Made by a program: the position numbers and the translations under genes. This document shows positions 2,539 through 32,618 of a stretch of DNA of 34,087 bases, piece by piece (within the stretch, counting starts at the first letter, position 1; each line of letters starts with the position of its first letter). Source of the DNA: a virus; IMG/VR virus record IMGVR_UViG_3300020159_004774, positions 1-34,087 of that record; one strand, given 5' to 3'. Under the pieces are notes generated by a model. It did no database searches, had not been told where the DNA came from, and worked only from the letters and a program-made list of their open reading frames with translations.

Positions 2539-5500
2539 TTGTCGGAATCATTTGTACCAAAACCTGTTTATCCACAAGAAATAGACAGTGATTATACATT
2601 ATTCAAGGTGTACAATACCTCTGAAACAACAATTTCACAAGACTTAAATCCGTTTGAATCAACGATATACATTGAACCAGTTGATGCTGACAATAATGAA
2701 CTTTGGGCCAATAATGGTTTTGCGAACATAAATGGCGAATTGTTGTATTACGATTCGGTTACCAAAGATCCAATTACAAACAAAGTCACGATATTACAAA
2801 ATTGCATAAGAAATCTTGGCGGTAAAAAACCGGCATACAACCCTTCTGGCACTGATATTCGTGGTTTCGTAATTGCCGAACATCACAATCAAATAGCTAG
2901 ATCAATAACCAATATTGAAAACTTTATCGGCTATCAAGAAAATCCAGATAAAGCCACTTTGGACTGGCGAATCAGAAATATGGCTCTGCAAAGTCCCATA
3001 GTCGATGATTATGGATGTCCAGATGTAAACTTCTCATACTTTATTGTTTCTCAAGATAGTTTGATCGGAACTACGATCAACTACAATCTAGACATTATTG
3101 GCACAAATTATGTTTTTGAGATTCAGTTCGGTGATGGCAAAAGCACTACAACAGAAAAGAACGGTATACATGTTTATGCTCCAAACACAATAATTGATCC
3201 TATTGTCAGCGTTACTACAAATACCTGCGAACAAGCTGTTAGCGGATTAATAAGAGAACAGGGCGATCAACCACAAGGTGCAGTGGCAGCAGTTGCATTT
3301 GAGGTATTGATTCCAGAAACTCCAACTCTTCCAGACATTAATGCTGATGTTGAAAATATTGTCCCAAACAACATTCTGCAACCACCTATTATATTCCCTT
3401 GCATAGGAAGTGATTTCGGGCCAATATCAATTCCTTCGATTATCAATATTGAACCACCGATCAATCTGCCTAGCACAGTCAGATTCGCTGACTTACCTGC
3501 AATTACAGATTTTATTGAAGTTGGTCCTATAGGAAATATTCCCAGCACTATAACAGTATCGCCTGCGTCAATTACTGGCACAATAGATTTGGAATTCGGG
3601 GGACTGTGTGTCACATGTTTTCCTGAAATAACAGTGACAAATGGAGTAGCGACAAATTATCCAAGACAAACTCCAGCAGAATGTTGCGATAGCAGTTCAG
3701 GTTCATCAAAAATAAGTAATTTACAAGTTGTTGTACATGATTTAAAACTATCCGGTAATACAGATTATGGTTTTATCAAGATGCTTCTTGAAAGTCCTTC
3801 TGGCAAAACATGTTTGTTGATGGGAAGTGCTTCTGGTACTAGTAATTTAACCGATACAGCAACTCTGACATTTAGTGACGCAGCTACAGATACAATTTAC
3901 AGTAAATTTGTAGGTAGTGGTACATACAAGCCTAGTCCTAATGGCAATCAAAACAGCAGAACAGCAGGCAGGGCTAATCTTGCTGGAAGTGCGCCAGCAC
4001 CATCTTATGGCACTCTGTTATCAAATTTTAATGATGATACTTTGGGTGGTGGTAGATGGAAATTATGGCTTGTATCCGGCAACACATCCATGACTGTATC
4101 TATAAATAAAGTTTGTCTGAAGGTTGCTTACGGTGCAAACAATAAGTGTTTTACTCCTATTTCTCCAAGCACGCCAGCAACACCGGCTACACCGGCTACA
4201 CCGGCTACGCCAACAACACCAACGCCTGTTTCTCCAGTAACTCCAACTACAATACCCAAGCCAGACGAAAGAGAAACCGGATACAATCTGTGTAGTGTTC
4301 TTGCGGAATTGCCTACTTTTAATAAAAATATAATTTCTTACAACAATGGCGAATTTACGATAAGAATCACAGAAAATTACAAAAATATATCAAAGTTTGT
4401 TCGTGTATCTAATTACTTATGCCCAGATGGCAAAACAACAATTCCCAACCCTCCAACTGTTTGGCTATGTCCTCCTAATACTGGCACTTGTGATTATGAA
4501 ATTGAATTTTCAAAATCTGTCAATAATATTATTTTTGGAGTCGCTGGTTCTGGATTAGCATCTACTGCCGGATACGAAATCTATTCTTTTACAAATAATA
4601 CAGGTTCTACTACATTGTCATTGCCGGGAATACAATGTGGATCAAGTGTTTCTGGGAACATTCTTACGACAGGAGGCACAGGAACTGGATATTGGGGTAA
4701 TGCTTATGTAAAAGTAACAGGTAGTCAGCAATTTACAAAATTAAGAATTCAGTCCGATAAAGCTTATTTACTTGCTGGTTCTATATTCTCAATTTGTGTT
4801 TCATCTGTTTCCCCTCCAACGCCATCGGCAACACCGGCAACGCCAGCAACGCCAGCAACGCCAGCAACGCCAGCAACGCCAGCAACGCCAGCAACGCCAG
4901 CAACACCGGCTACACCAGCAACACCATCGGCAACTCCAGCAACACCGGCTACACCATCGGCAACTCCAGCAACACCGGCAACACCGGCAACACCGGCAAC
5001 GCCAGCAACGCCAGCAACACCGGCAACACCGGCAACGCCATCGGCTACACCATCATCTGATCTTGGAAGATGTTTTTTTCGTAAAGTTGATGATAAAACC
5101 ATAGAAAAAGGGTTTAGAAATATAGGGGTTATCAATACTATTTCGTGTTCTGGGGACTGCCGAGTTTTTTATGGATATGTCCCTGTAGGTTCAAGATTAG
5201 AAAATCTCTCAAGTATTTATAATTGTGGCCCATGTTTTGGATTTATTTTAGGTCCGAACGGAGGAGGTTTTGCAGTTACATCTACAACTGTCAAAGATAT
5301 TGGTTCAATAAATAGCCTTGATGAGACGACATTAAATAGACCCCTTTTTATAACGACTATTGTTCCAGATGGTAAACGAATTCGTATAAGATCGCAGTCA
5401 TATGATAAAGATAATAATTATCTCAATGACCAAGTAAAGCACGGATTTGGCGTTATTCCCCAAGTAGGCGAATTGGTAGGAGGACCACTAATTTGGTCTG

Positions 5501-8500
5501 GCGGTCCATGTTCTTTGTACAGTGACAATTGGGGTATAGATAATACTCCGGGATTCCTAGACTATACATATTTTATAACTACCCAAGGCGGTGCTTTTTC
5601 TTATCTAGGTAAAATTTATTCATCACATGCAGATTTCGTAACTGGATTTTCGAGAGTCACGGAGCAACCAAGAGGACTTTGGCCAGCTGTCCCAGTATGG
5701 AAGCATGTTTTAACTGGTGCCGGGCCTGCTGCACCAATCTACCAAGTTATAAACAGAACAGATCCATATTTTACAAATTATTGTGATTTAGAAGGGTTCG
5801 GTCCCGCACCACCTGTTCCTTTTACCATGTACGAAAAAAATGCTACATCAATATCGGATCAAAAATTGAATTTAGAAAATTATATTATCAATTTGTTTCA
5901 GACAAATACGGCATATATTTCTGGAGGATCTACTATCCTCGATGCCACAGATGGTTCAACCCAAGCATCTTCCAGCACTTATAAATTTAACTTCAATTTA
6001 GAAACTCAAACGGCAAAATCTTCCGCTGATTTATCAACAGCAAACTATAATTTATCTGGTTGTTCCGGCAATAGGTTATCTGGATATTTTGCAGGAGGAC
6101 AAAACAATATTGTTTATTCTTCGCTGCAAAAAATAAATTATTCGTATGATCAAACAAGCACATTGCCTTCAATATTAGATAAAGGCTTACAAGGCTTGAA
6201 TGCATTGACAGACTTTACGGATAGAGGATTGTTTTTAGGTGGATTGGATTCAAACAATAATTTTTCTTCAAGCATAAATATATTGCAATATTCCACAGAT
6301 TTAATTACTAATTATTTGGGCACTGCTTTGCCTTACAATCTGTCGTATGCAACTTCAATATCGGCAACTATTTCAAATGGATATGTTTGCGGAGGATCAA
6401 CTTCTACTGTAGTAACGAGATCTCTTAAGGTAAATTATTCAACACTAACCTTAACAGAATCTCTTCCAACAAGTTTGAATACAGCATTGCAAGGAACTAT
6501 TGGTCTTGATGGCCAAGGCAGCAAAGGTTTTCTTTTATTTGGAGCGAACGAAGTTGTTACAGCTAACGCTTATAAAATTAATTTTTCTAATGATGTTTGC
6601 AGCGTTTTAACAGATGTAAATCTTACTAATCCAAGATGTTTTGGTGCTGGCATTTCAGACAGAGACACAAGAGGATTTGCTCTAGGAGGAAAGCAAAATA
6701 CAAACTTCAGTAATTTGATATTCTCCCAAGCAGATAAATTTGATTTTGGAACGGAAACAGCTTCGGTTTCTACATCGGCCCAACTTATCAAGCCTTTGTC
6801 TAACATGGTCGGAATTAGTCCATGTCAACCAATTTTGTCTGTAGGACAAACAGGATACGCTGCTGGTGGATACAATACCGAAATATTAAGCCAAGGAGAA
6901 AGCATTTGTTATGATAGCGACACAACATTTATAAATGCTTCACTTTCTTTACAAAATCCTAATCAAAATCTTACTGGTCTTTCCGCCAATTGTGATTACG
7001 GTTATTTTGCTGGTGGCAATACTGGAACGCTAACAAAAAATATTCAAAAAATTGTCTACGGCACAGGACAAGTAACAGGCGTAATAATATCAGAATTGAG
7101 TTCTAGTCGTGAAAGTTTATCTGCTTTATCAAACAACATAGATGCGGGATATTTCTTGGGAGGAAACACAGGAGCAGCGGTAAACAATATCGATAAAATT
7201 ACTTATATAACAGATATCACATCTGCAAGCCCATCAACTTTGTTACAAGCAAGATATGGCGCATTCTCAACAAATCAATTCAACATAAAGGGATTTATTT
7301 CTGGGGGAAGCACAGGAGTATCTTCTATTTCAACATCAGAAAAAATCAATTTTGTGACTGATGTAGTTTCCGCAGCATCCATGTCATCGCTTAGTGTACC
7401 AAGATCTTTTGGATCAAGTATTACTTATGCAGCAGATGCGGGATTAATGCTTGGTGGTGTTAACACAACAACATACTATGACATATCTGAAAAATTATCA
7501 TTTAGTAATGAAGTTGTTTCGGTCGTGGCTTCCGCTACGCTTTCTGCCAATTTCGCTTACACAGCTGGGATGACTAACGGATTTTCAACAGGCTATGTTA
7601 CAGGGGGATCAACATCTAATACTACATTTAGCAATTTAACACAAAAAATTTCTTTTAGCAATTTGACTACATCCAACTCTGCAAGTGCAAGTTTGTGTAC
7701 TGCAAGAAAATCACATGCTTGCGTATCATCTTTCTGCAATTATGATTATCAAAACTCCAGTCATATATGGATGCCAAACAGTAAAAACCAAGGGTATTTG
7801 AATTATCAGAAAATATATCATGATACAGATGTTTCTTCATACAGTACTCAGAGTCAGCTAATCGATCCATCTGACTTCACTGACTACCAAAATATAATAA
7901 CTTGTTCTGGTAATGGCGATGCTGGTTATTTGAGTTTGTATTACTCATCGGGAGACACATCTACATTTAGGTTCCTGAAATTCAATTATGCAAACGAAGT
8001 ATTGGAAACTATTTCCGCCAGTCTTGAAAAAGGCTATGTGGCAAGCGTTTATTCTTGTGGATCTTTGGGTTATTTTTCTGGAGGAATTGATCCTTTTGGA
8101 GAAGGGACATATCTTAATAAAACAGATTTAATTATTTATTCCAACGATACTTTGTATGCTGCCACAGCTGCTGATTTGTCAGAACCGAGATATGGTGCAT
8201 CTGGCATATCAAATTCAAACATAGCTGGCTACATCCAAGGAGGATATTCAAGAGCACCTGTAAAAACAGCTGACAAACTTAGTTTTTCAAACAATACAAC
8301 ATCTAGGGTATCTACGGCAGACCTAAATTATGGAAGATATAAGGCTGCTGGTTGTGATGGAAATGCTGGTAAAGGTTATGTAGCTGGAGGATCAAGTTCC
8401 GGCACATACTTGAATCAAATGGAATTCACGCTTTATTCCCAAGATATAAATTTTACATCAACAACTGCTTCGTTGACTGTGGCAAGAGATAATTTGGCTG

Positions 8501-11379
8501 CTAGCACAGATCGTTTCAGTAAAGGATATTTCTCTGGTGGGTATTCTGGGGCTAGCGTTGGTATAACTGAAAAGATAACATATTCCCAATCAACTTTGTC
8601 ACAAATTAGTACTGCTAATTTGTTATATGAGTCTTCTATTGCTGCTGGTATGTCGCCTAATAGGGGATTAGCTAATGTCGGCAACAGATCTTACTTAGTT
8701 GGCACCAATTCTCTTAGTGCTAACGGTGGCTTGATAGCGACAAGTTGTACTTTTGATTTTAATTCATCTACATTTGCGAACAGTTTGTCTAATTTATCAT
8801 TTAACAATGCTAATTCATATGTTGATCAATCGCCAATCAATCATCTCAATGGTATTAGTAATGGTAGCAAGGGCATAGTCCAATGGTTTACTTGCACAGC
8901 AAAAATACATGATGCATTTAATGGAGCGGAAAATGTGTGTGTCGGCCAGCATTCCGAATTTAATTCAATTAATTTAGGAACTGGAGTTGCGAGTTATCTG
9001 TATGCAAATCCAATGGCTTTAGGAGGATTTGTAGTATCTTTGGATGGTAATTTATCTAAAGGATATTTTACGGTTGGTGGATCGAACGACTTGTACAATG
9101 GGTCTACCGACATAAATCTCTTAACTCACAGATATGCTTATCTTACAGACACGCTTTCCTATGTGGATGTGGCAAATTTGCAAGTAAGAGCAAATGGAAG
9201 AACTGGAATAAGTGGTGATACAGAAAGCTCCTACCTTACTGGAGGGTATAATTTCTTTAATACACAAATATACGAGCCATATTTTGGATGTAATCTTCCA
9301 ATATTTACAAATATTATAGAAACAATAACGCACGCAACTGATGTTTGTAGGATTTTGCAGGCATCGGTGTTGCAACAACCACAGGCTAATAGTGCCAGCG
9401 TATCTAAAATAAATTTGAAAGCATATATTGCAGGAGGACAAAAGCTAGAATTTGGTGGCTACGATAATATTCAAAATTCCTGTAGACCAACCACTGTAAC
9501 AGTTGTGGCCAATACTGAACTATTCAATTTTGCAACTAGCAGTTTTTCCACGCTGACATCGGCAAATTTGAGTAATCCATCTGTTGATGCCTCTATGTCA
9601 GACAGATATACCAAGGGTTTCTTTGTAACTGGCCAACTGATTGGTGGAGAATCTATTCAGCTGCAATCAATAAATTATTCAACTGATGTTTCTTCAACTA
9701 GCAATTACTCCTTTGGAGAATTTTTCTCCGGAAATATGTATCCTCAAACAAGTGTTGGAGAATTTTCGTACTATTTCAACGACAACCCAACTACAGAACC
9801 GGCTCTATCATCATTTAATGAAGGATCAATAAGTGTTATAAATGAATCTGTTGGTAGCAAATTTATGTATGCAACTGAAACATGGAGAAACACGGCAATA
9901 AGCGACATATATGTAGGTTCTGGTCGTGGTTGGGGCAGCACATCACCTTATGATGGATCAAAAAATCCTGCGTACTTATCTGGCAATTCAACAAAAGGTT
10001 ATATAGAACAGACCAAGATAATGTATTCGACGGAAGTTTCCAGCAAATTAACATCGAACATCACAAGTTATGTTTTCAACATAGCTGGATTTTCCAACGG
10101 AAATACGGCTGGATACATTACAGAGTGCGGTGGAATTTACGGATCAGATTTGGCTCAAAACTATGTTCGTGTAACCAACGCTCCAATATCAAAAATGACT
10201 TATGGTAGTGACACACCATCAGCTTTTTCTGGCACTATACCTGTATCAAACTCAGCTTTCTTGAGCGGTTTTGCAACCCTTTCGTATGCTCAAAATAAAG
10301 CCTTTATAGTTGGAGTTGCTAAAGCCAATAGCAACACTGTTCTTCCAGTAGCACAGTTTGATTACACCACAGAAACAGCATCTACCATCAATCTGACAGG
10401 CACTACAGCATGGAATAGTTTTGCAACAGGATTCAAAGGCAGACCTTTGACAACTCAGTTTGATGGCATAGCATCTGGTTACATAAAGGCATATAACACA
10501 ACAACTTATGATAATAGTGAATTGTATAAAAATACTTTCATCAGTAGTAGTGTAACGAAGATAAACTATACTTCGAATACTTATTCCATCATAAATTACA
10601 CACAGCCAGAGGTTGGAGATGGTGGTGGTGATTTTGAAAATCGTGACATTTGCGGATATGGATCATCAAGTCCTATCCAAATAAAGTGCATGATAAATGG
10701 AAGTGAGACTATATGTCAAAGACCTGTGCCTTACATATTCAAATTTAATTATGTAAATGAAACATTTATAGCAATTACTTCCGACATGTATCTGAATCCA
10801 GTCAAATATCTTGACGAACCTATAGGCAGCACATATTGTGGTCTATCTCCATATCCTGTTGAGAATATCAGTTTTGCATTTCAAGATGAAAGCCCTCCCA
10901 TGTTTAGCATGGCTGGATTACAAGATAAATTTTATATTATTAGTCTTAAAAACGGCAAAAATGTAATCGTAAATCTGGAAGACAAGCCAACTAACAACTA
11001 TTATGCCGGTCCTTTCAAGTCATATGGGGATGCTGCAAAATTTCAAGCCAATCATAAACAAGATGTTGAGATTTCTTATGACATCGGTTATCAAGTAAAA
11101 ACCGACATGGGATATAGACCACATCAAAAAACAATAAAAATACATAGTAGTTTGCCAAACCTTGAAACAAAATCAAATAATCAAAATTTATCTGAAAAAG
11201 AAATTGTTTCTTTTGGTTTGCCTAAAATTTACCATTCAGGCATGGAATCCAAAGAAATAGAAAATGATGTTTGGGAAAAACCAAGTAATTCTGGTTTGCC
11301 GAAACTTGAGAATAAAGTGAAAATTATTCCATTGGATTTATCTGTTACTATCAACAAAGACGAACTTATTGGCGAATAA
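2539..11379 (+). CDS. Giant modular virion adhesin with PKD-like, P-domain-like, Thr-Pro-Ala linkers and kelch-like repeats (2946 aa)
   Basis: Probable tail-fibre or baseplate-attached adhesin. Residues ~1-135 resemble phage structural N-termini (NGELLYYD, then HHNQIARSI). Residues ~184-230 look PKD-like (IQFGDGKSTTTEKNGIHVY). Residues ~389-529 resemble a proprotein-convertase P-domain (LESPSGKTCLL, GRWKLWLVSG). Thr-Pro-Ala linkers at ~545-575 and ~760-840 flank another Cys-containing domain. Residues ~1120-2035 hold about 17 repeats of 50-55 residues with GYFAGG-type turns followed by an I-x-Y-S-T/N strand, consistent with kelch-like beta-propellers. Residues ~2137-2946 duplicate the upstream gene, including the LPxLE tail. 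The start is TTG at 2539, preceded by AAGG at 2526-2529; the ATGs just upstream are out of frame. No catalytic motif was recognised. Host-receptor binding is inferred. Confidence 0.85.
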   Translation: MSESFVPKPVYPQEIDSDYTLFKVYNTSETTISQDLNPFESTIYIEPVDADNNELWANNGFANINGELLYYDSVTKDPITNKVTILQNCIRNLGGKKPAYNPSGTDIRGFVIAEHHNQIARSITNIENFIGYQENPDKATLDWRIRNMALQSPIVDDYGCPDVNFSYFIVSQDSLIGTTINYNLDIIGTNYVFEIQFGDGKSTTTEKNGIHVYAPNTIIDPIVSVTTNTCEQAVSGLIREQGDQPQGAVAAVAFEVLIPETPTLPDINADVENIVPNNILQPPIIFPCIGSDFGPISIPSIINIEPPINLPSTVRFADLPAITDFIEVGPIGNIPSTITVSPASITGTIDLEFGGLCVTCFPEITVTNGVATNYPRQTPAECCDSSSGSSKISNLQVVVHDLKLSGNTDYGFIKMLLESPSGKTCLLMGSASGTSNLTDTATLTFSDAATDTIYSKFVGSGTYKPSPNGNQNSRTAGRANLAGSAPAPSYGTLLSNFNDDTLGGGRWKLWLVSGNTSMTVSINKVCLKVAYGANNKCFTPISPSTPATPATPATPATPTTPTPVSPVTPTTIPKPDERETGYNLCSVLAELPTFNKNIISYNNGEFTIRITENYKNISKFVRVSNYLCPDGKTTIPNPPTVWLCPPNTGTCDYEIEFSKSVNNIIFGVAGSGLASTAGYEIYSFTNNTGSTTLSLPGIQCGSSVSGNILTTGGTGTGYWGNAYVKVTGSQQFTKLRIQSDKAYLLAGSIFSICVSSVSPPTPSATPATPATPATPATPATPATPATPATPATPATPSATPATPATPSATPATPATPATPATPATPATPATPATPSATPSSDLGRCFFRKVDDKTIEKGFRNIGVINTISCSGDCRVFYGYVPVGSRLENLSSIYNCGPCFGFILGPNGGGFAVTSTTVKDIGSINSLDETTLNRPLFITTIVPDGKRIRIRSQSYDKDNNYLNDQVKHGFGVIPQVGELVGGPLIWSGGPCSLYSDNWGIDNTPGFLDYTYFITTQGGAFSYLGKIYSSHADFVTGFSRVTEQPRGLWPAVPVWKHVLTGAGPAAPIYQVINRTDPYFTNYCDLEGFGPAPPVPFTMYEKNATSISDQKLNLENYIINLFQTNTAYISGGSTILDATDGSTQASSSTYKFNFNLETQTAKSSADLSTANYNLSGCSGNRLSGYFAGGQNNIVYSSLQKINYSYDQTSTLPSILDKGLQGLNALTDFTDRGLFLGGLDSNNNFSSSINILQYSTDLITNYLGTALPYNLSYATSISATISNGYVCGGSTSTVVTRSLKVNYSTLTLTESLPTSLNTALQGTIGLDGQGSKGFLLFGANEVVTANAYKINFSNDVCSVLTDVNLTNPRCFGAGISDRDTRGFALGGKQNTNFSNLIFSQADKFDFGTETASVSTSAQLIKPLSNMVGISPCQPILSVGQTGYAAGGYNTEILSQGESICYDSDTTFINASLSLQNPNQNLTGLSANCDYGYFAGGNTGTLTKNIQKIVYGTGQVTGVIISELSSSRESLSALSNNIDAGYFLGGNTGAAVNNIDKITYITDITSASPSTLLQARYGAFSTNQFNIKGFISGGSTGVSSISTSEKINFVTDVVSAASMSSLSVPRSFGSSITYAADAGLMLGGVNTTTYYDISEKLSFSNEVVSVVASATLSANFAYTAGMTNGFSTGYVTGGSTSNTTFSNLTQKISFSNLTTSNSASASLCTARKSHACVSSFCNYDYQNSSHIWMPNSKNQGYLNYQKIYHDTDVSSYSTQSQLIDPSDFTDYQNIITCSGNGDAGYLSLYYSSGDTSTFRFLKFNYANEVLETISASLEKGYVASVYSCGSLGYFSGGIDPFGEGTYLNKTDLIIYSNDTLYAATAADLSEPRYGASGISNSNIAGYIQGGYSRAPVKTADKLSFSNNTTSRVSTADLNYGRYKAAGCDGNAGKGYVAGGSSSGTYLNQMEFTLYSQDINFTSTTASLTVARDNLAASTDRFSKGYFSGGYSGASVGITEKITYSQSTLSQISTANLLYESSIAAGMSPNRGLANVGNRSYLVGTNSLSANGGLIATSCTFDFNSSTFANSLSNLSFNNANSYVDQSPINHLNGISNGSKGIVQWFTCTAKIHDAFNGAENVCVGQHSEFNSINLGTGVASYLYANPMALGGFVVSLDGNLSKGYFTVGGSNDLYNGSTDINLLTHRYAYLTDTLSYVDVANLQVRANGRTGISGDTESSYLTGGYNFFNTQIYEPYFGCNLPIFTNIIETITHATDVCRILQASVLQQPQANSASVSKINLKAYIAGGQKLEFGGYDNIQNSCRPTTVTVVANTELFNFATSSFSTLTSANLSNPSVDASMSDRYTKGFFVTGQLIGGESIQLQSINYSTDVSSTSNYSFGEFFSGNMYPQTSVGEFSYYFNDNPTTEPALSSFNEGSISVINESVGSKFMYATETWRNTAISDIYVGSGRGWGSTSPYDGSKNPAYLSGNSTKGYIEQTKIMYSTEVSSKLTSNITSYVFNIAGFSNGNTAGYITECGGIYGSDLAQNYVRVTNAPISKMTYGSDTPSAFSGTIPVSNSAFLSGFATLSYAQNKAFIVGVAKANSNTVLPVAQFDYTTETASTINLTGTTAWNSFATGFKGRPLTTQFDGIASGYIKAYNTTTYDNSELYKNTFISSSVTKINYTSNTYSIINYTQPEVGDGGGDFENRDICGYGSSSPIQIKCMINGSETICQRPVPYIFKFNYVNETFIAITSDMYLNPVKYLDEPIGSTYCGLSPYPVENISFAFQDESPPMFSMAGLQDKFYIISLKNGKNVIVNLEDKPTNNYYAGPFKSYGDAAKFQANHKQDVEISYDIGYQVKTDMGYRPHQKTIKIHSSLPNLETKSNNQNLSEKEIVSFGLPKIYHSGMESKEIENDVWEKPSNSGLPKLENKVKIIPLDLSVTINKDELIGE
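4171..4230 (+). repeat. Short Thr-Pro-Ala linker repeat (9-bp units)
   Basis: About six 9-base units of the ACACCGGCT/ACGCCAGCA type encode (T-P-A)n directly after the P-domain-like module. This looks like a flexible or polyproline-like linker between domains, and is a shorter version of the array at 4819-5055. Confidence 0.8.
4819..5055 (+). repeat. Thr-Pro-Ala minisatellite linker (9-bp units with S-insertions)
   Basis: About 25 units of ACGCCAGCA, ACACCGGCA or ACTCCAGCA encode T-P-A, interrupted by four S-A-T-P variants (CCATCGGCA/T). Runs of identical units beside blocks with other synonymous codons, and a repeated CCATCGGCAACTCCAGCA block, indicate expansion by slippage or unequal recombination. 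It encodes an extended linker inside the giant adhesin (residues ~760-840). It also opens false reading frames on both strands. Confidence 0.9.
5900..8640 (+). repeat. Kelch-like protein repeat block in the giant adhesin
   Basis: About 17 successive units of roughly 150-170 bases encode a G-[YFL]-x-x-G-G turn, a variable Ser/Thr/Asn-rich loop, a K-[ILF]-x-[YF]-[SDG] strand, and a [LS]-x-x-x-R/N-x-x-x-x-[AG] segment. Examples are GYFAGG, GLFLGG, GYVCGG, GFALGG, GYFLGG, GFISGG and GYIQGG. Two or three units near 7780-7980 are degenerate. The spacing suits one beta-propeller blade per unit. DNA-level identity between units is low, so the expansion is old. Confidence 0.75.
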
Positions 11380-16713: not shown

Positions 16714-17724
16714 ATGAATCAATTTGTTGGATATGATGCTGGAACATACACGGCTGTTTGCTGCAAAAGAGACAAAAACAATAATTTTGTCTATAGGAAA
16801 GAGATTAACGCATTTCTGGAACTTCCATTAGAGAATCGTTTTGTATTTAACATGATGAAACAGGCAGGAGTTCCTCTTATTGAAAGAGAAAATGTCGCTT
16901 ATGCTCTGGGCGAAGCTGCTGTCAACATGGCATATACCCTGCCTACCTTAGAACTCAAACGACCCATGAAAGATGGGTGCGTCAACCCCAAGGAAAGAGA
17001 CGCATTTCAGATCATGAGCATCATGGCTCATAGTTTAATAGACCCAATCGAAAAAGATGGCGGAAAGTTGTATTACAGCGTGCCTGCAAATGCTATTAAT
17101 CAAGAAACTGATGCCGATTATCATTCCAAAGTCTTGGAAGCTATTTTCAAAAGCTACGCATCTGACGAGGGCAACAAGATTGAGCCTAAGCCAATCAACG
17201 AAGCTTTGGCTGTCGTTTACGCAGAACTAGGCAAGAAGGCGTTTACCGGCGTTGGTGTGTCCTGTGGGGCCGGAATGATAAATGTTTGTTATGCCATGTA
17301 TGGCAATCCAATTTTCCAATTTGCTATCGTTAATTCCGGTGACTGGATTGACAAGCAAGCAGCGAAGGCAACTGGAGAAAGTCCTACCTTCATTAACAAA
17401 GAAAAAACTAAGGTTGATCTGACCAAGAACCCAGAAACATTAGTTGAAAGAGCTATAATTACCCAATATCGTCTGATGATTGAAAAAACGATAACAGGTA
17501 TCAAAGAAGGCTTGGCAACTTCAAATAAAGCTGTCAAGGCAGAAAATCCAGTAGATTTTGTTGTGGCCGGTGGCACATCTATGGCCAAGGGATTTGTTGA
17601 TATTTTCTCAGAATCCCTTAAGACAGCAAAGTTGTCGATTCCTGTTGGAGAAGTGATAAGACCTGCCGAACCACTTTTTAGTGTAGCGAAGGGTTGTTTG
17701 ATAGCTGCTGAAGCAGCTGGTTAA
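16714..17724 (+). CDS. Actin/MreB/ParM-fold ATPase-like protein
   Basis: The five actin-superfamily motifs can be followed: phosphate-1 GYDAGTYT (6-13), connect-1 INEALAVVYAE (161-171), phosphate-2 VGVSCGAGMINVCY (180-193), adenosine VVAGGTSMAKGF (283-294) and connect-2 PLFSVAKG (320-327). The 336-aa length fits MreB/ParM/Alp proteins. Such proteins polymerise with ATP to segregate plasmids or position phage DNA. The phosphate-2 loop lacks the usual Asp (DxGxxTxD becomes VSCGAGMIN), so hydrolysis may be slow or absent. AAAGG precedes the ATG. It heads a run with a DUF5659-like protein and a helical protein, which may be partners. Confidence 0.85.
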   Translation: MNQFVGYDAGTYTAVCCKRDKNNNFVYRKEINAFLELPLENRFVFNMMKQAGVPLIERENVAYALGEAAVNMAYTLPTLELKRPMKDGCVNPKERDAFQIMSIMAHSLIDPIEKDGGKLYYSVPANAINQETDADYHSKVLEAIFKSYASDEGNKIEPKPINEALAVVYAELGKKAFTGVGVSCGAGMINVCYAMYGNPIFQFAIVNSGDWIDKQAAKATGESPTFINKEKTKVDLTKNPETLVERAIITQYRLMIEKTITGIKEGLATSNKAVKAENPVDFVVAGGTSMAKGFVDIFSESLKTAKLSIPVGEVIRPAEPLFSVAKGCLIAAEAAG

Positions 17725-26469: not shown

Positions 26470-26519
26470 TTTTGGCGATCTCCTCGTTCATATATATTTT
26501 AGTCATCCTTTGGGAAAAA

Positions 26520-28316
26520 ATGAAACAACAATCTTTATGGCATGAGAAATATTCTTCTCCAAAGAAGTATTACGAAGCCAATTACGATCAGCAATTTTAT
26601 TATTTTGATGAATATCAAATGGAAATTGATCCTGATGAAAAGATAGAGGATATGAATAATTATTCTCTTGAAAGACAACGAGAAGAAATTGTCAAATGCA
26701 TGGAAAGCTTTCCATATTTTTGTCAAAAATACATCAAAATTCTACATCCAGTAAAAGGATTAATACCATTTTTGCTTTTTAAATATCAAGCTAGATGTAT
26801 CGAGGAGTACAAACAATTCAGATTTAATATTATTTCTAAATTCCGTCAGGGCGGTTTAACAACAGTTACTCTGTTGTACGGTCTTTGGAAATGCATGTTT
26901 GAACTTGATCAACAGATAATGACATTGTCAAAAACAGATCGTGAAGCCGTAGGCACTGGCATGATGGTTGACCGTGCTGTAGAGCATATGCCTGAATGGA
27001 TTAGACCAAAAAAAGATGGAAAATGGAACGATCACCTCAAACAGTTTCCCGATACCGGCGGTGCCTTGCAGTTCTATTCGCCAGAAGCTGCCCGTGGTAA
27101 ATCAGTGACATTTCTTATCATTGACGAAGCCGCCTTCATCCCTGAAATGGAAAATCACTGGAAAGCTATGTGGCCTGTGTTAAGCACAGGTGGTAGTTGC
27201 GTCCTTGTTTCCACCGTAAACGGTCTTGGAAACTGGTACGAAGAAACATACACAAAAGCCAAAGCAGGCGAAAACAAATTCCATGTCATTGATTTGGATT
27301 ATTACGAACATCCAGACTACAACGAAAAGAGCAACCCGGACTGGATTCATGAACAAAGGGCTCAGTTAGGCGAAAGAGGCTTTCTTCAGGAAGTCATGCG
27401 GTCTTTCTTGGGATCTGGCGAAACATATATACCATCTCAAAAGTTAGCAAGTCTGGATCAAGAACTGAGAAATCTTGATCCCGCAAAGAAAATGTTCGCT
27501 CAATACGCAAATAACGACAATAGCAGCGAAGAAGATAATGATACAATCTACAAGGGTGCTTTATGGTTGTGGAAAGAGCCAGTTGCTGGACAGGAATATG
27601 TACTGGGAGTAGACTGCGCCGAGGGAATAGGAACTAACGGCGATAATTCTTGCATCGAAATTCTAAACATTAATACCCTTGAACAGGTTGCTGAATTTTA
27701 CAGCAACAATATTTCTCCACATGATTTAGCCAACATACTTAATGAATTGGGCATTTTATATAACAATGGATTGATAGCAGTGGAAGACATGGCATCCGGG
27801 GGTATCGTCCTGAATAATCTCCAAATGGATTTCAGCTATGAAAATTTGTTCTATAGCGGGAAAAACAGCAAAAATATGAAGCCGGGTATCAAAGTCACGG
27901 CAGCTAACAGACCAATCATATTGCAAGGTTTTCAATCTCGTGTCATTGATGATACTTTGAAGATGAAAAGCAGAAGATTATTGAGGGAGATGAAGACATT
28001 TGAATTCAACAACACTACAAAAAAAGCAGAGGCGGCAAAAAACAAACATGATGACGCAATTATGGCAATAGCCATAGCCATTTATGCCAGAGATCAATCG
28101 ATAAGAGACATTCCGTTGGGCATGATCGTTTCAGATGGACTTGCCAAGGCAAATTCTAAATTAGATGATATCCGTCAAGAATTGAGAAAAGGTTTGAAAG
28201 ATGATCTGCTAGATAGGATAAGGACAAAAGAAAAATCTGCTAAAGATTTCGATAACGAGATTTTAATAAGCATGTATAGAAAAAAAGACAGCTTACTCCG
28301 TGAATTTGGGTGGTGA
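26520..28316 (+). CDS. terL: Terminase large subunit (TerL)
   Basis: The packaging ATPase and nuclease that drives DNA into the prohead. The start at 26520 (MKQQSLWHEK) is chosen over the longer TTG frame because that frame runs into the divergent gene. The ATPase has a deviant Walker A KFRQGGLTT (107-115, Leu where Lys usually sits, Lys/Arg earlier), Walker B FLIIDEAAF (198-206; D202, E203) and coupling motif STVNG (231-235). The C-terminal RNase H-like nuclease has D365 (VLGVDCAEG), E422 (AVEDMASGG) and D511/D512 (HDDAIMAIAIAIY). The length of 598 aa matches T4 gp17-type enzymes. It leads a three-gene run. Confidence 0.95.
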   Translation: MKQQSLWHEKYSSPKKYYEANYDQQFYYFDEYQMEIDPDEKIEDMNNYSLERQREEIVKCMESFPYFCQKYIKILHPVKGLIPFLLFKYQARCIEEYKQFRFNIISKFRQGGLTTVTLLYGLWKCMFELDQQIMTLSKTDREAVGTGMMVDRAVEHMPEWIRPKKDGKWNDHLKQFPDTGGALQFYSPEAARGKSVTFLIIDEAAFIPEMENHWKAMWPVLSTGGSCVLVSTVNGLGNWYEETYTKAKAGENKFHVIDLDYYEHPDYNEKSNPDWIHEQRAQLGERGFLQEVMRSFLGSGETYIPSQKLASLDQELRNLDPAKKMFAQYANNDNSSEEDNDTIYKGALWLWKEPVAGQEYVLGVDCAEGIGTNGDNSCIEILNINTLEQVAEFYSNNISPHDLANILNELGILYNNGLIAVEDMASGGIVLNNLQMDFSYENLFYSGKNSKNMKPGIKVTAANRPIILQGFQSRVIDDTLKMKSRRLLREMKTFEFNNTTKKAEAAKNKHDDAIMAIAIAIYARDQSIRDIPLGMIVSDGLAKANSKLDDIRQELRKGLKDDLLDRIRTKEKSAKDFDNEILISMYRKKDSLLREFGW

Positions 28317-30107: not shown

Positions 30108-32618
30108 ATGCCAACACCAATATGGGCTGATTTCTTCAAAACATTTGATTTTGCATTTACGAGAGATCCGCTTTCCAGAACATTAAACACAAAAGACTTG
30201 GTTGGCGCTGGTATAGCACAGCCAGATTCCATTCCATCTCTTAGCCCTGACGGTAGTTTCTGGAGCAATTCAGACAATAGACTCATAAGACTAAGGGAAA
30301 CAAATGATTTCATCGATTTGTCTACCGTTTCAAACAGACAAAGCAGATACAAAGAATACGAAAGACTTCGAAATATCCCAGAAATAGAAATGGCTCTTAA
30401 TGTTTTCTCAGATGAATCTTGTCTTTCTGGAAAAACAAAAGTTGCCACACCATTTGGCATGATAGCCATAGAGGAATTGGCTGCGAAACAAGCAAATGAC
30501 AAGTTTTTGGTTTACTGCTACGATTTTAAAAAGAAAGATTATGGTCTTGGATGGGCTCATTCTCCAAGAAAAACAAAAATTGCAAAAACGCAAATTTTAG
30601 TTTTCGACAACGGCACGACACTTGAATCAACTCCCGATCACCGTGTATTGATGAGAGATGGCACTTGGAGACAAGCAGGCGAAATAAATGTTGGCGATGA
30701 AGTAATGCCATTTTATAGATTACCAGCAAACCAAAACCTTTCGAAAATTCCAACAAAACAATATCCGAGAATTTTTAGTTTTGAAAAAGGCTGGGTTCAC
30801 GAAAGACAGTTTGTTGACGATTGGCGTTTGGGCAAAACAATCGAAAAATTCGATAACATCAATTTTTATTGCAGATTGATATCTCAAGGATTGAATATGA
30901 ACCAAATTCTGCAACAGGTCGATTGCGATTGGAAAACAATAAAAAATAGACTGAAATCAGAAGGATTCAGCATTGATGAACTTCGCATGATCGCAAGAAA
31001 CAAGGACAGAAGAAGAGTAATCAACAAGATTGAAGGAAAAGAACAGGCAGTTTACGACCTAACAGTCGAGGAACATCATAATTTCTGCACTGAAAACACC
31101 GTTGTACATAATTGCCAAAAAGACGATAAAGGACATTTGTTTAGTATAAATTGTAGAAACGATGATGTTCGTGAAGAGCTTGAATTTTTGTTTTTCCACA
31201 AATCCATGATCAATATCAGCAGAAGAGCATGGGCTGATTTCAAAAGCTTGCTTCTATACGGCGATCTGTTCTATGAGATTGTGATTGATTTGGATAACCC
31301 TAAGGCGGGGGTAATGAGAATAATGAGATTGCCACCCGAATCTATGTACAGGATTGAAACCACAAAAGGCAAACTAGTAGAATTCCAACAGTCCAAGGAA
31401 GGGCCAGATTATCAAAGTCTTACTAGGGCTCCTGTCGTACAAGCTACCGACCAAGACATCATGATGGCAACTGCGATCAGATTTTCTCCAGAACAAGTCG
31501 TACATTCCAAAATAGGCGACGATAGAAACACATTTTATCCTTATGGAGTTTCTATGGTCGAAGCTGCCAGAGGTCCAGCACATCAATTAAGACTTATGGA
31601 AGATGCAATGTTAGTTTATAGATTGTCAAGAAGCCCAGAAAGAAGAGTGTTTTATATCGATGTTGGTGCTTTGCCACCATTTAAGGCCGAAGCTTTTGTT
31701 GAAAAACTTAAAGATCAGTTCAGAAAAAAGAAAGTAAGCAGCAACAGACCCGGAATGCAAGGCCCAAATTCAGTCGAAGAAAGATATCACGCTCCAGCCG
31801 TAGATGAGGATTACTGGCTCCCAATTAGACCTAACTCTAATACCAAAATCGAAACCTTGCCCGGCGCACAAAATCTAGGCGAAATAGATGACGCAGTTTA
31901 TTTCAGGAACAGACTTTTCACTGCTTTGCAATTTCCCAAAAACTACTTCAATGTTGAAGATGCTGCTGTTACTAGAATCACTCTTTCTGCACAAGATATT
32001 CGTGTCGCAAGATTAATAGAAAGACTACAGCAACCCTATGAAGACGCAATGTGGGAAATAGCAGACAGACATCTTAAACTTAGAGGCTTCCCATCCGAAT
32101 CTTATGAAGATTTGATAATAAAGATGACCCCGCCATCAGAATGGCGTGAATTAAGCAGAGCAGAAATAGTTAATGCAAGAATTCAAAATGCCACAAGTAT
32201 AAAAAGCGCAGCAATCATGTCTGATTACGATATCCTTACAAAGTGGATGGGATATACAGAAGAAGATGCCAAAATTGTTATCGCTAGAAACAAAATGCAG
32301 AAAATTGAAGATGCCAAGTTGCAGATTTTGTCCCAAAATCCAGCGCTTCTTGGGGTTGGAATACCAGCAGAAAAAGATGAAAAGAAAGAACCCGAAATCG
32401 GTACAACACCAGAAGGTCCAAGCCCGATGCTGTCCCCACCCGGAGCCGAAACTCCCGAGGCTCCCTCAGCGGAAGGGGAAGTTCCAGCACCTATCGGAGG
32501 TGGCGGGGAACCTATTTCAGAACCAACCGAAGAAGACATCCAAAAATACGATCTTGGTATAAAGACCTACGCCTCAGAAGAGGATATGGAAGAGCCGGAT
32601 TATGACGATTATGAATGA
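30108..32618 (+). CDS. Portal protein interrupted by an intein (836 aa precursor)
   Basis: The portal is the dodecameric ring at the head vertex through which TerL pumps DNA. Residues 1-104 and 336-836 form the mature ~605-aa protein, comparable to T4 gp20-like portals: NIPEIEMALNVFSDE, FSINCRNDDVREELEFLF, SRRAWADFKSLLLYGDLFYE, RLPPESMYRIETTKG, GALPPFKAEAFVEKLKDQFR and NYFNVEDAAVTRI. The last ~90 residues are Pro/Glu/Gly-rich and end in DYDDYE, probably a disordered tail. An intein occupies residues 105-335 and must splice out for function. The nearest purine-rich site (AAAGG) is about 16 bases from the ATG, so the start is fair but not certain. Confidence 0.9.
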   Translation: MPTPIWADFFKTFDFAFTRDPLSRTLNTKDLVGAGIAQPDSIPSLSPDGSFWSNSDNRLIRLRETNDFIDLSTVSNRQSRYKEYERLRNIPEIEMALNVFSDESCLSGKTKVATPFGMIAIEELAAKQANDKFLVYCYDFKKKDYGLGWAHSPRKTKIAKTQILVFDNGTTLESTPDHRVLMRDGTWRQAGEINVGDEVMPFYRLPANQNLSKIPTKQYPRIFSFEKGWVHERQFVDDWRLGKTIEKFDNINFYCRLISQGLNMNQILQQVDCDWKTIKNRLKSEGFSIDELRMIARNKDRRRVINKIEGKEQAVYDLTVEEHHNFCTENTVVHNCQKDDKGHLFSINCRNDDVREELEFLFFHKSMINISRRAWADFKSLLLYGDLFYEIVIDLDNPKAGVMRIMRLPPESMYRIETTKGKLVEFQQSKEGPDYQSLTRAPVVQATDQDIMMATAIRFSPEQVVHSKIGDDRNTFYPYGVSMVEAARGPAHQLRLMEDAMLVYRLSRSPERRVFYIDVGALPPFKAEAFVEKLKDQFRKKKVSSNRPGMQGPNSVEERYHAPAVDEDYWLPIRPNSNTKIETLPGAQNLGEIDDAVYFRNRLFTALQFPKNYFNVEDAAVTRITLSAQDIRVARLIERLQQPYEDAMWEIADRHLKLRGFPSESYEDLIIKMTPPSEWRELSRAEIVNARIQNATSIKSAAIMSDYDILTKWMGYTEEDAKIVIARNKMQKIEDAKLQILSQNPALLGVGIPAEKDEKKEPEIGTTPEGPSPMLSPPGAETPEAPSAEGEVPAPIGGGGEPISEPTEEDIQKYDLGIKTYASEEDMEEPDYDDYE
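30420..31112 (+). other. Intein in the portal protein, endonuclease apparently degenerate
   Basis: The block runs from Cys105 (CLSGKTKVATPFGMIAIEEL, splicing block A) to His334-Asn335, followed by Cys336 (block G, VVHN|C). Block B is TLESTPDHRVL (T175, H178) and block F is VYDLTVEEHHNFC. These give both splicing junctions exactly. The 231-aa length is short for an intein with a full endonuclease. Residues ~219-245 (YPRIFSFEKGWVHERQF) look like the lead-in of HNH homing enzymes, and ~255-290 (LISQGLNMNQILQQ...WKTIKNRL) like a helix-turn-helix, but the HNH core between them is missing. No LAGLIDADG motif. Confidence 0.92.

Follow-up and report, generated by a model that had tools for sequence, protein, structure and literature searches.

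The T4 gp20-like portal gene of a virus contig contains, at positions 30420-31112, an intein of the class-1 type in which all splicing residues are intact and the HNH core of a homing endonuclease is absent. We consider it probable that it represents a class-1 intein that is fixed and vertically inherited in a clade of huge phages, has lost its endonuclease, has retained an insert, and has a second role after its excision. Sequence comparisons establish its identity, fixation and descent, the selection acting on it, and the existence of freed copies outside the portal.

The portal gene and its intein

The analyzed DNA, i.e. the window, is the 34,087-base virus stretch IMGVR_UViG_3300020159_004774 of IMG/VR. 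The features of its portal gene are listed below, together with the large terminase gene as context; the limits of the wing domain of T4 gp20 were taken from PMC4493910.

30108..32618 (+), portal (gp20-like) precursor of 836 aa (Portal_T4, 6.9e-75; PDB gp20 structures 3ja7/6uzc, ~3e-29)
30108..30419 (+), N-extein of 104 aa, ending with FSDES; the site maps near residue 100 of T4 gp20, within the wing domain
30420..31112 (+), intein of 231 aa, from Cys1 to His230-Asn231 (profiles, model, family of relatives)
30420..30734 (+), N-terminal splicing region, intein residues 1-105, with Cys1 and block B (TIGR01445, conservation)
30630..30641 (+), block B TPDH (TxxH motif), intein residues 71-74 (Thr, Asp and His in 100/100 distinct inteins)
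30735..30836 (+), lead-in of the insert, residues 106-139, beta-hairpin and helix, QYPRIFSFEKGWVHERQFVDDWRLGK (dN/dS 0.038; Gly124, Trp125 and Glu128 invariant)
30837..31004 (+), basic helix-turn-helix (HTH) part of the insert, residues 140-195 (helices of the predicted model; Pfam HTH in some relatives)
31005..31112 (+), C-terminal splicing region, residues 196-231, blocks F and G with Asp213, His219 and His230-Asn231 (TIGR01443, invariance)
31113..32618 (+), C-extein with the portal core, starting with CysGlnLys, Cys336 being the +1 nucleophile (ORF, Portal_T4)
26472..28316 (+), large terminase, without an intein (Terminase_6N; phrog_2)

Inside the 836-aa portal ORF, a Pfam Intein_splicing match (2.5e-13) was found, and both TIGR01445 intein_Nterm (residues 105-181) and TIGR01443 intein_Cterm (315-336) exceeded their cut-offs. 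A first-pass annotation of the sequence had placed an intein with all splicing blocks and junctions at this position of a portal, and the profiles and residues bear it out exactly: Cys105 is encoded at 30420, the codons for His334-Asn335 extend to 31112, and Cys336 occupies the +1 position. In intein numbering, the splice residues are Cys1, Thr71-Pro-Asp-His74, Asp213, His219, and His230-Asn231. The calculated splice products are a portal of 605 aa and an intein of 231 aa.

The motifs of class-1 splicing (reviewed in PMC10663303) are consistently present. Cys is found at position 1 and at +1 in the window as well as in all distinct portal inteins, and Thr71 and His74 of block B, Asp213 of block F, and the terminal His-Asn are conserved in 141/141 portal inteins among the matches listed. 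Empty host alleles also exist, i.e. the T4-like outgroup portals, in which the sequence is continuous across the site, and two portals of the clade itself, on the contigs L206 and L388. The natural empty site of the latter, ADEA|CQIGEN, has the junction predicted for the window, and the intein site adjoins the conserved ADE motif of the portal.

The AlphaFold2 model of the intein (mean pLDDT 95) has a predicted Hint splicing fold, which is shared with the Mtu RecA mini-intein (2in0; Z 22.3, 1.4 Å, 136 residues). Neither has an endonuclease core. In contrast to the RecA mini-intein, the portal intein keeps an extra insert at the endonuclease position (residues ~106-195), which is not a short loop but a conserved region of ~90 aa with a hairpin and an HTH.

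Judged from these residues, the intein would most likely excise itself autocatalytically, by an acyl shift at Cys1, transfer to Cys336, and cyclization of Asn335. This would release the portal and the intein in equal amounts, with one intein per portal subunit. The wing-domain site suggests that splicing probably precedes ring assembly, as a 231-aa insertion there could disturb ring or capsid contacts.

Elsewhere in the window, a gene of the viral, actin-like Volactin family is found at 16714-17724 (+; PF25216, 2.6e-63), and a single ORF of 2946 aa extends over 2539-11379 (+), with phrog_19111 (unknown function) as its sole match.

Distribution, selection, and the conserved insert

The sample was obtained by scanning IMG/VR with portal and intein profiles, taking the best 80 matches each, and adding the 595-kb phage LR756511 and one bacterial bin. 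It comprises at least 141 distinct portal inteins including that of the window. Each of them occupies the same site, has a length of 228-236 aa, and keeps C...HN|C intact, and the exteins of some carriers are only ~55-60% identical. Among the matches listed, the only intein-free portals of the clade are those of L206 (contig 3300032884_000230) and L388 (3300033977_000105), both with YADEA|CQIGEN. Searches of IMG/VR with empty-site DNA patterns gave 22 matches for ADEACQK, none of them a portal of the clade, and no portal match for FADEACQ; YADEACQ recovered the L206 contig and L388. The first-pass annotation had pointed to intein-free relatives and to full HNH versions at the same site as informative: two of the former were found, and none of the latter, nor any longer allele, among the 141 portal inteins listed. 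That the region might be a normal domain of all portals, also considered there, is contradicted by these two portals and by the T4-like outgroups.

Two members of the sample are peculiar. L197 (RXKI01000042.1, a Neisseriaceae MAG) is the only relative in a bacterial genome collection, has both portal inteins (see below for the second site), and is either a binned phage contig or a hint to the host. In L011 the frame is broken inside the intein, resulting in pieces of 164 and 303 aa, which is a sequencing error or a true lesion.

To quantify selection, dN/dS was calculated from 16 close, independent pairs; omega of all pairs is saturated. The extein has a value of 0.060, the splicing domain one of 0.064, and the insert one of 0.067; within the insert, the lead-in has 0.038 and the HTH part 0.086. 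The insert is therefore as constrained as the portal. For 96 precursors, the extein and intein trees have 56/93 splits in common. The intein tree has 38 splits with strong support, of which the extein tree contains 36 and contradicts none (Mantel r 0.84). A mobile intein would yield a tree pattern different from such an extein-congruent one. The intein is thus old, vertically inherited, and fixed, and its constant length, conservation, and purifying selection show long-term maintenance and not decay.

The insert consists of the lead-in, followed by helices with the HTH. Gly124, Trp125 and Glu128 of the lead-in are invariant in 100 distinct inteins, and Pfam HTH_23 is matched by some relatives at 4e-4. 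The insert is basic, with a median charge of +9 and never less than +3, whereas the splicing domain is acidic (−5). Folded alone, with a shallower alignment, it reaches a pLDDT of 62, compared with 92-95 together with the splicing domain, and its structure matches are weak HTH similarities (DosR/NarL-like, E ~0.7 or more). The helix-turn-helix and the basic charge suggest nucleic-acid binding by the insert, which is our leading guess.

The earlier reading that the HNH catalytic core is gone holds: no HNH family match was obtained for the window intein and 25 relatives, and an HNH-like V.HH.D motif occurs in 0/96 linkers of the clade. The patchy distribution and horizontal transfer of HNH homing endonucleases are likewise missing, the intein being fixed and the trees congruent. 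Aligning the profile of the isolated insert with three individual HNH inteins yielded no signal. We infer the HNH ancestry of the insert from its arrangement, from resemblance, and from a partial structural match to an HNH intein of Bacillus phage SP-15 (BFVD A0A127AYL6), the best viral match (TMq 0.69). The N-terminal splicing half of the SP-15 intein resembles that of the window intein (37.6%), but it resides in another host protein, is 377 aa long, and has an HNH-like MHH...N motif. The lead-in is thus likely a remnant of an HNH nuclease flank. The core was probably lost early, before the clade radiated, and the flanking hairpin and basic HTH would have been retained as a conserved domain.

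Autorepression in the style of I-TevI, for which a precedent exists (PMC2988022), would involve an insertion-site-like operator upstream of the portal. The best 20-mer identity was 12.8, compared with 12.7 in shuffles (p 0.48), and this model is not supported.

Freed intein genes and alternative explanations

Both contigs with intein-free portals encode a whole intein as a separate gene upstream of the portal, flanked in both cases by the same pair of neighbor genes:

L206:1615-2322, free intein gene with its own Met, 235 aa
L388:11778-12488, free intein gene with its own Met, 236 aa

The start of the L388 gene overlaps the stop of the preceding gene. The two free copies are 54% identical and orthologous, indicating one relocation event. 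Cys1, Asp213, and the penultimate His are gone in both; in addition, one has lost Thr71 and the other His74, His219, and Asn231. The loss of these catalytic residues, which are common to inteins generally, indicates a splicing ancestor of the free copies. In contrast to the splicing part, in which 26/35 and 20/35 near-invariant residues remain, all nine near-invariant insert residues are retained in both, and the ratio of lead-in to splicing identity is higher in both free copies than in all 141 listed portal inteins.

Omega between the free copies is 0.45 (pS 0.48, pN 0.28, Fisher p 8e-6). Selection is therefore weaker than on the portal inteins, with little constraint on the HTH part (omega 0.72). 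When neutral evolution was simulated up to this divergence, none of 2000 runs left both frames open, and none attained the lead-in identity of 0.80. In view of the relaxed selection, the free copies may have been functional for a time and then have entered slow decay.

With midpoint rooting, as well as in the intein tree, L206 groups with L279, L284 and L280; this holds for both its portal and its free intein, as expected if the free gene arose from the portal intein of that lineage. On rooting with the distant outgroup, a topology that places L206 outside the portals with an intein was not rejected (p-AU 0.73); in the large extein tree used for rooting, the inteins of a second portal site (site-b, see below) had been removed from the rows. 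In one sub-lineage, the intein would thus have moved from the portal to a gene of its own, lost splicing, and been retained.

The gene just upstream of the free intein lies at L206:988-1533 and L388:11221-11781. The L206 gene matches the Acb1 (anti-CBASS) and 2′-5′ RNA ligase families at ~1e-7.

The free copies are splicing-dead, yet have open frames and retain the insert residues, so that a role of the intein protein beyond splicing, perhaps DNA binding, is likely; once excised, the intein probably serves, or once served, such a second function of its own. A further step, namely that the intein is domesticated, each portal delivering a basic HTH protein with its own job that was taken over by the free gene in L206 and L388, is tentative, and we rate it slightly below an even chance; on this reading, an endonuclease-free intein would have been retained for the excised polypeptide, and not for mobility or splicing alone. 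A competing explanation, which appears rather unlikely to us, is a frozen selfish relic that is immobile without its endonuclease and owes its persistence to the rarity of precise deletions in an essential gene, with an insert conserved only for the needs of the splicing fold. Fixation and vertical descent agree with absent mobility, and with the alignments available, shallower for the insert alone, a confident fold of the insert was obtained only in the presence of the splicing domain. However, known mini-inteins splice without any such insert. An endonuclease domain can affect splicing in other inteins (PMC10663303), in line with a relic, but a splicing-only role leaves unexplained two splicing-dead copies in which the lead-in is the best kept of all and the frames are open.

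Two other explanations fare worse. With a conditional switch, portal assembly would wait for an environmental or cellular signal that triggers splicing. Conditional splicing has been documented for other inteins (PMC10663303), and an intein in the wing domain could block ring or capsid contacts; nevertheless, no signal or sensor motif was identified and L206 and L388 manage without a portal intein, making a switch improbable here. The first-pass annotation had described an actively decaying homing endonuclease. The missing HNH core next to persisting flanking elements fits that description, but an omega of 0.067 for the insert, the invariant Gly-Trp..Glu, the near-constant length of all 141 listed portal inteins, and the lack of any intact or half-decayed HNH version among them render it highly improbable. 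We therefore favor the maintained intein with a second role.

Known systems and further portal inteins

Inteins in phage portals are known from mycobacteriophages (PORT; Kelley et al. 2016, PMC5050341). In the available part of that source, they are reported from cluster C1, and their distinction from the inteins described here is based on description, not on sequence; that part mentions neither a T4 gp20-type clade nor fixation or a freed copy. Non-splicing relatives of inteins are also known. Yeast HO and WHO (PMC7282813) are stand-alone, intein-like genes, and HO has a cellular role. The L206 and L388 copies, not the window intein, resemble HO in being genes of their own that have lost the splicing residues and are under selection, but HO and WHO keep the endonuclease, which is absent from the phage copies. 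Arthrobacter Arth_1007 (PMC3196547) is a non-splicing intein remnant of phage origin without a recognizable host protein, and was judged to be a decayed pseudogene; in contrast, the free phage copies are under purifying selection and have their own Met and no extein.

An intein of the window type is not described in the available text of the huge- and gut-phage papers PMC7162821, PMC12363816, PMC7886860, and PMC12619734. In the accessible open literature, no combination of a fixed, endonuclease-free intein, a conserved insert, and freed copies under selection was found. Whether inteins are mere parasites or are kept for host benefit is an open question (PMC10663303). The portal family amounts to a natural experiment, comprising a fixed endonuclease-free intein, a patchy endonuclease-type intein, and a freed non-splicing lineage, in which a trans function of an intein can be tested directly.

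The patchy type resides at site-b, YRL|(S/T)RAPERR, where 13 of 137 distinct portals carry an additional intein, the measured ones being 395-430 aa long, in contrast to the fixed intein of the window site. The carriers are:

L279, L284, L285, L143, L176, L179, L181, L190, L194, L197, L327, L336, L352

The site-b intein of L279, the one scanned, has a LAGLIDADG_3 match. In the 484-kb huge phage L016 (LR756508.1), the gp20-like portal (ORF from 1027) is interrupted by three inteins of 150, 141, and 458 aa at sites that differ from that of the window; the last one has an HNH_3-like match. At least five intein sites exist in gp20-like portals. The earlier statement that inteins are unusual in portals is true only in part, considering the second inteins, the three of L016, and the mycobacteriophage examples (PMC5050341, as far as available). 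In L312 (portal ORF from 3674), the C-extein is ~400 aa longer than usual, not at the site-b position, and possibly contains another intein site.
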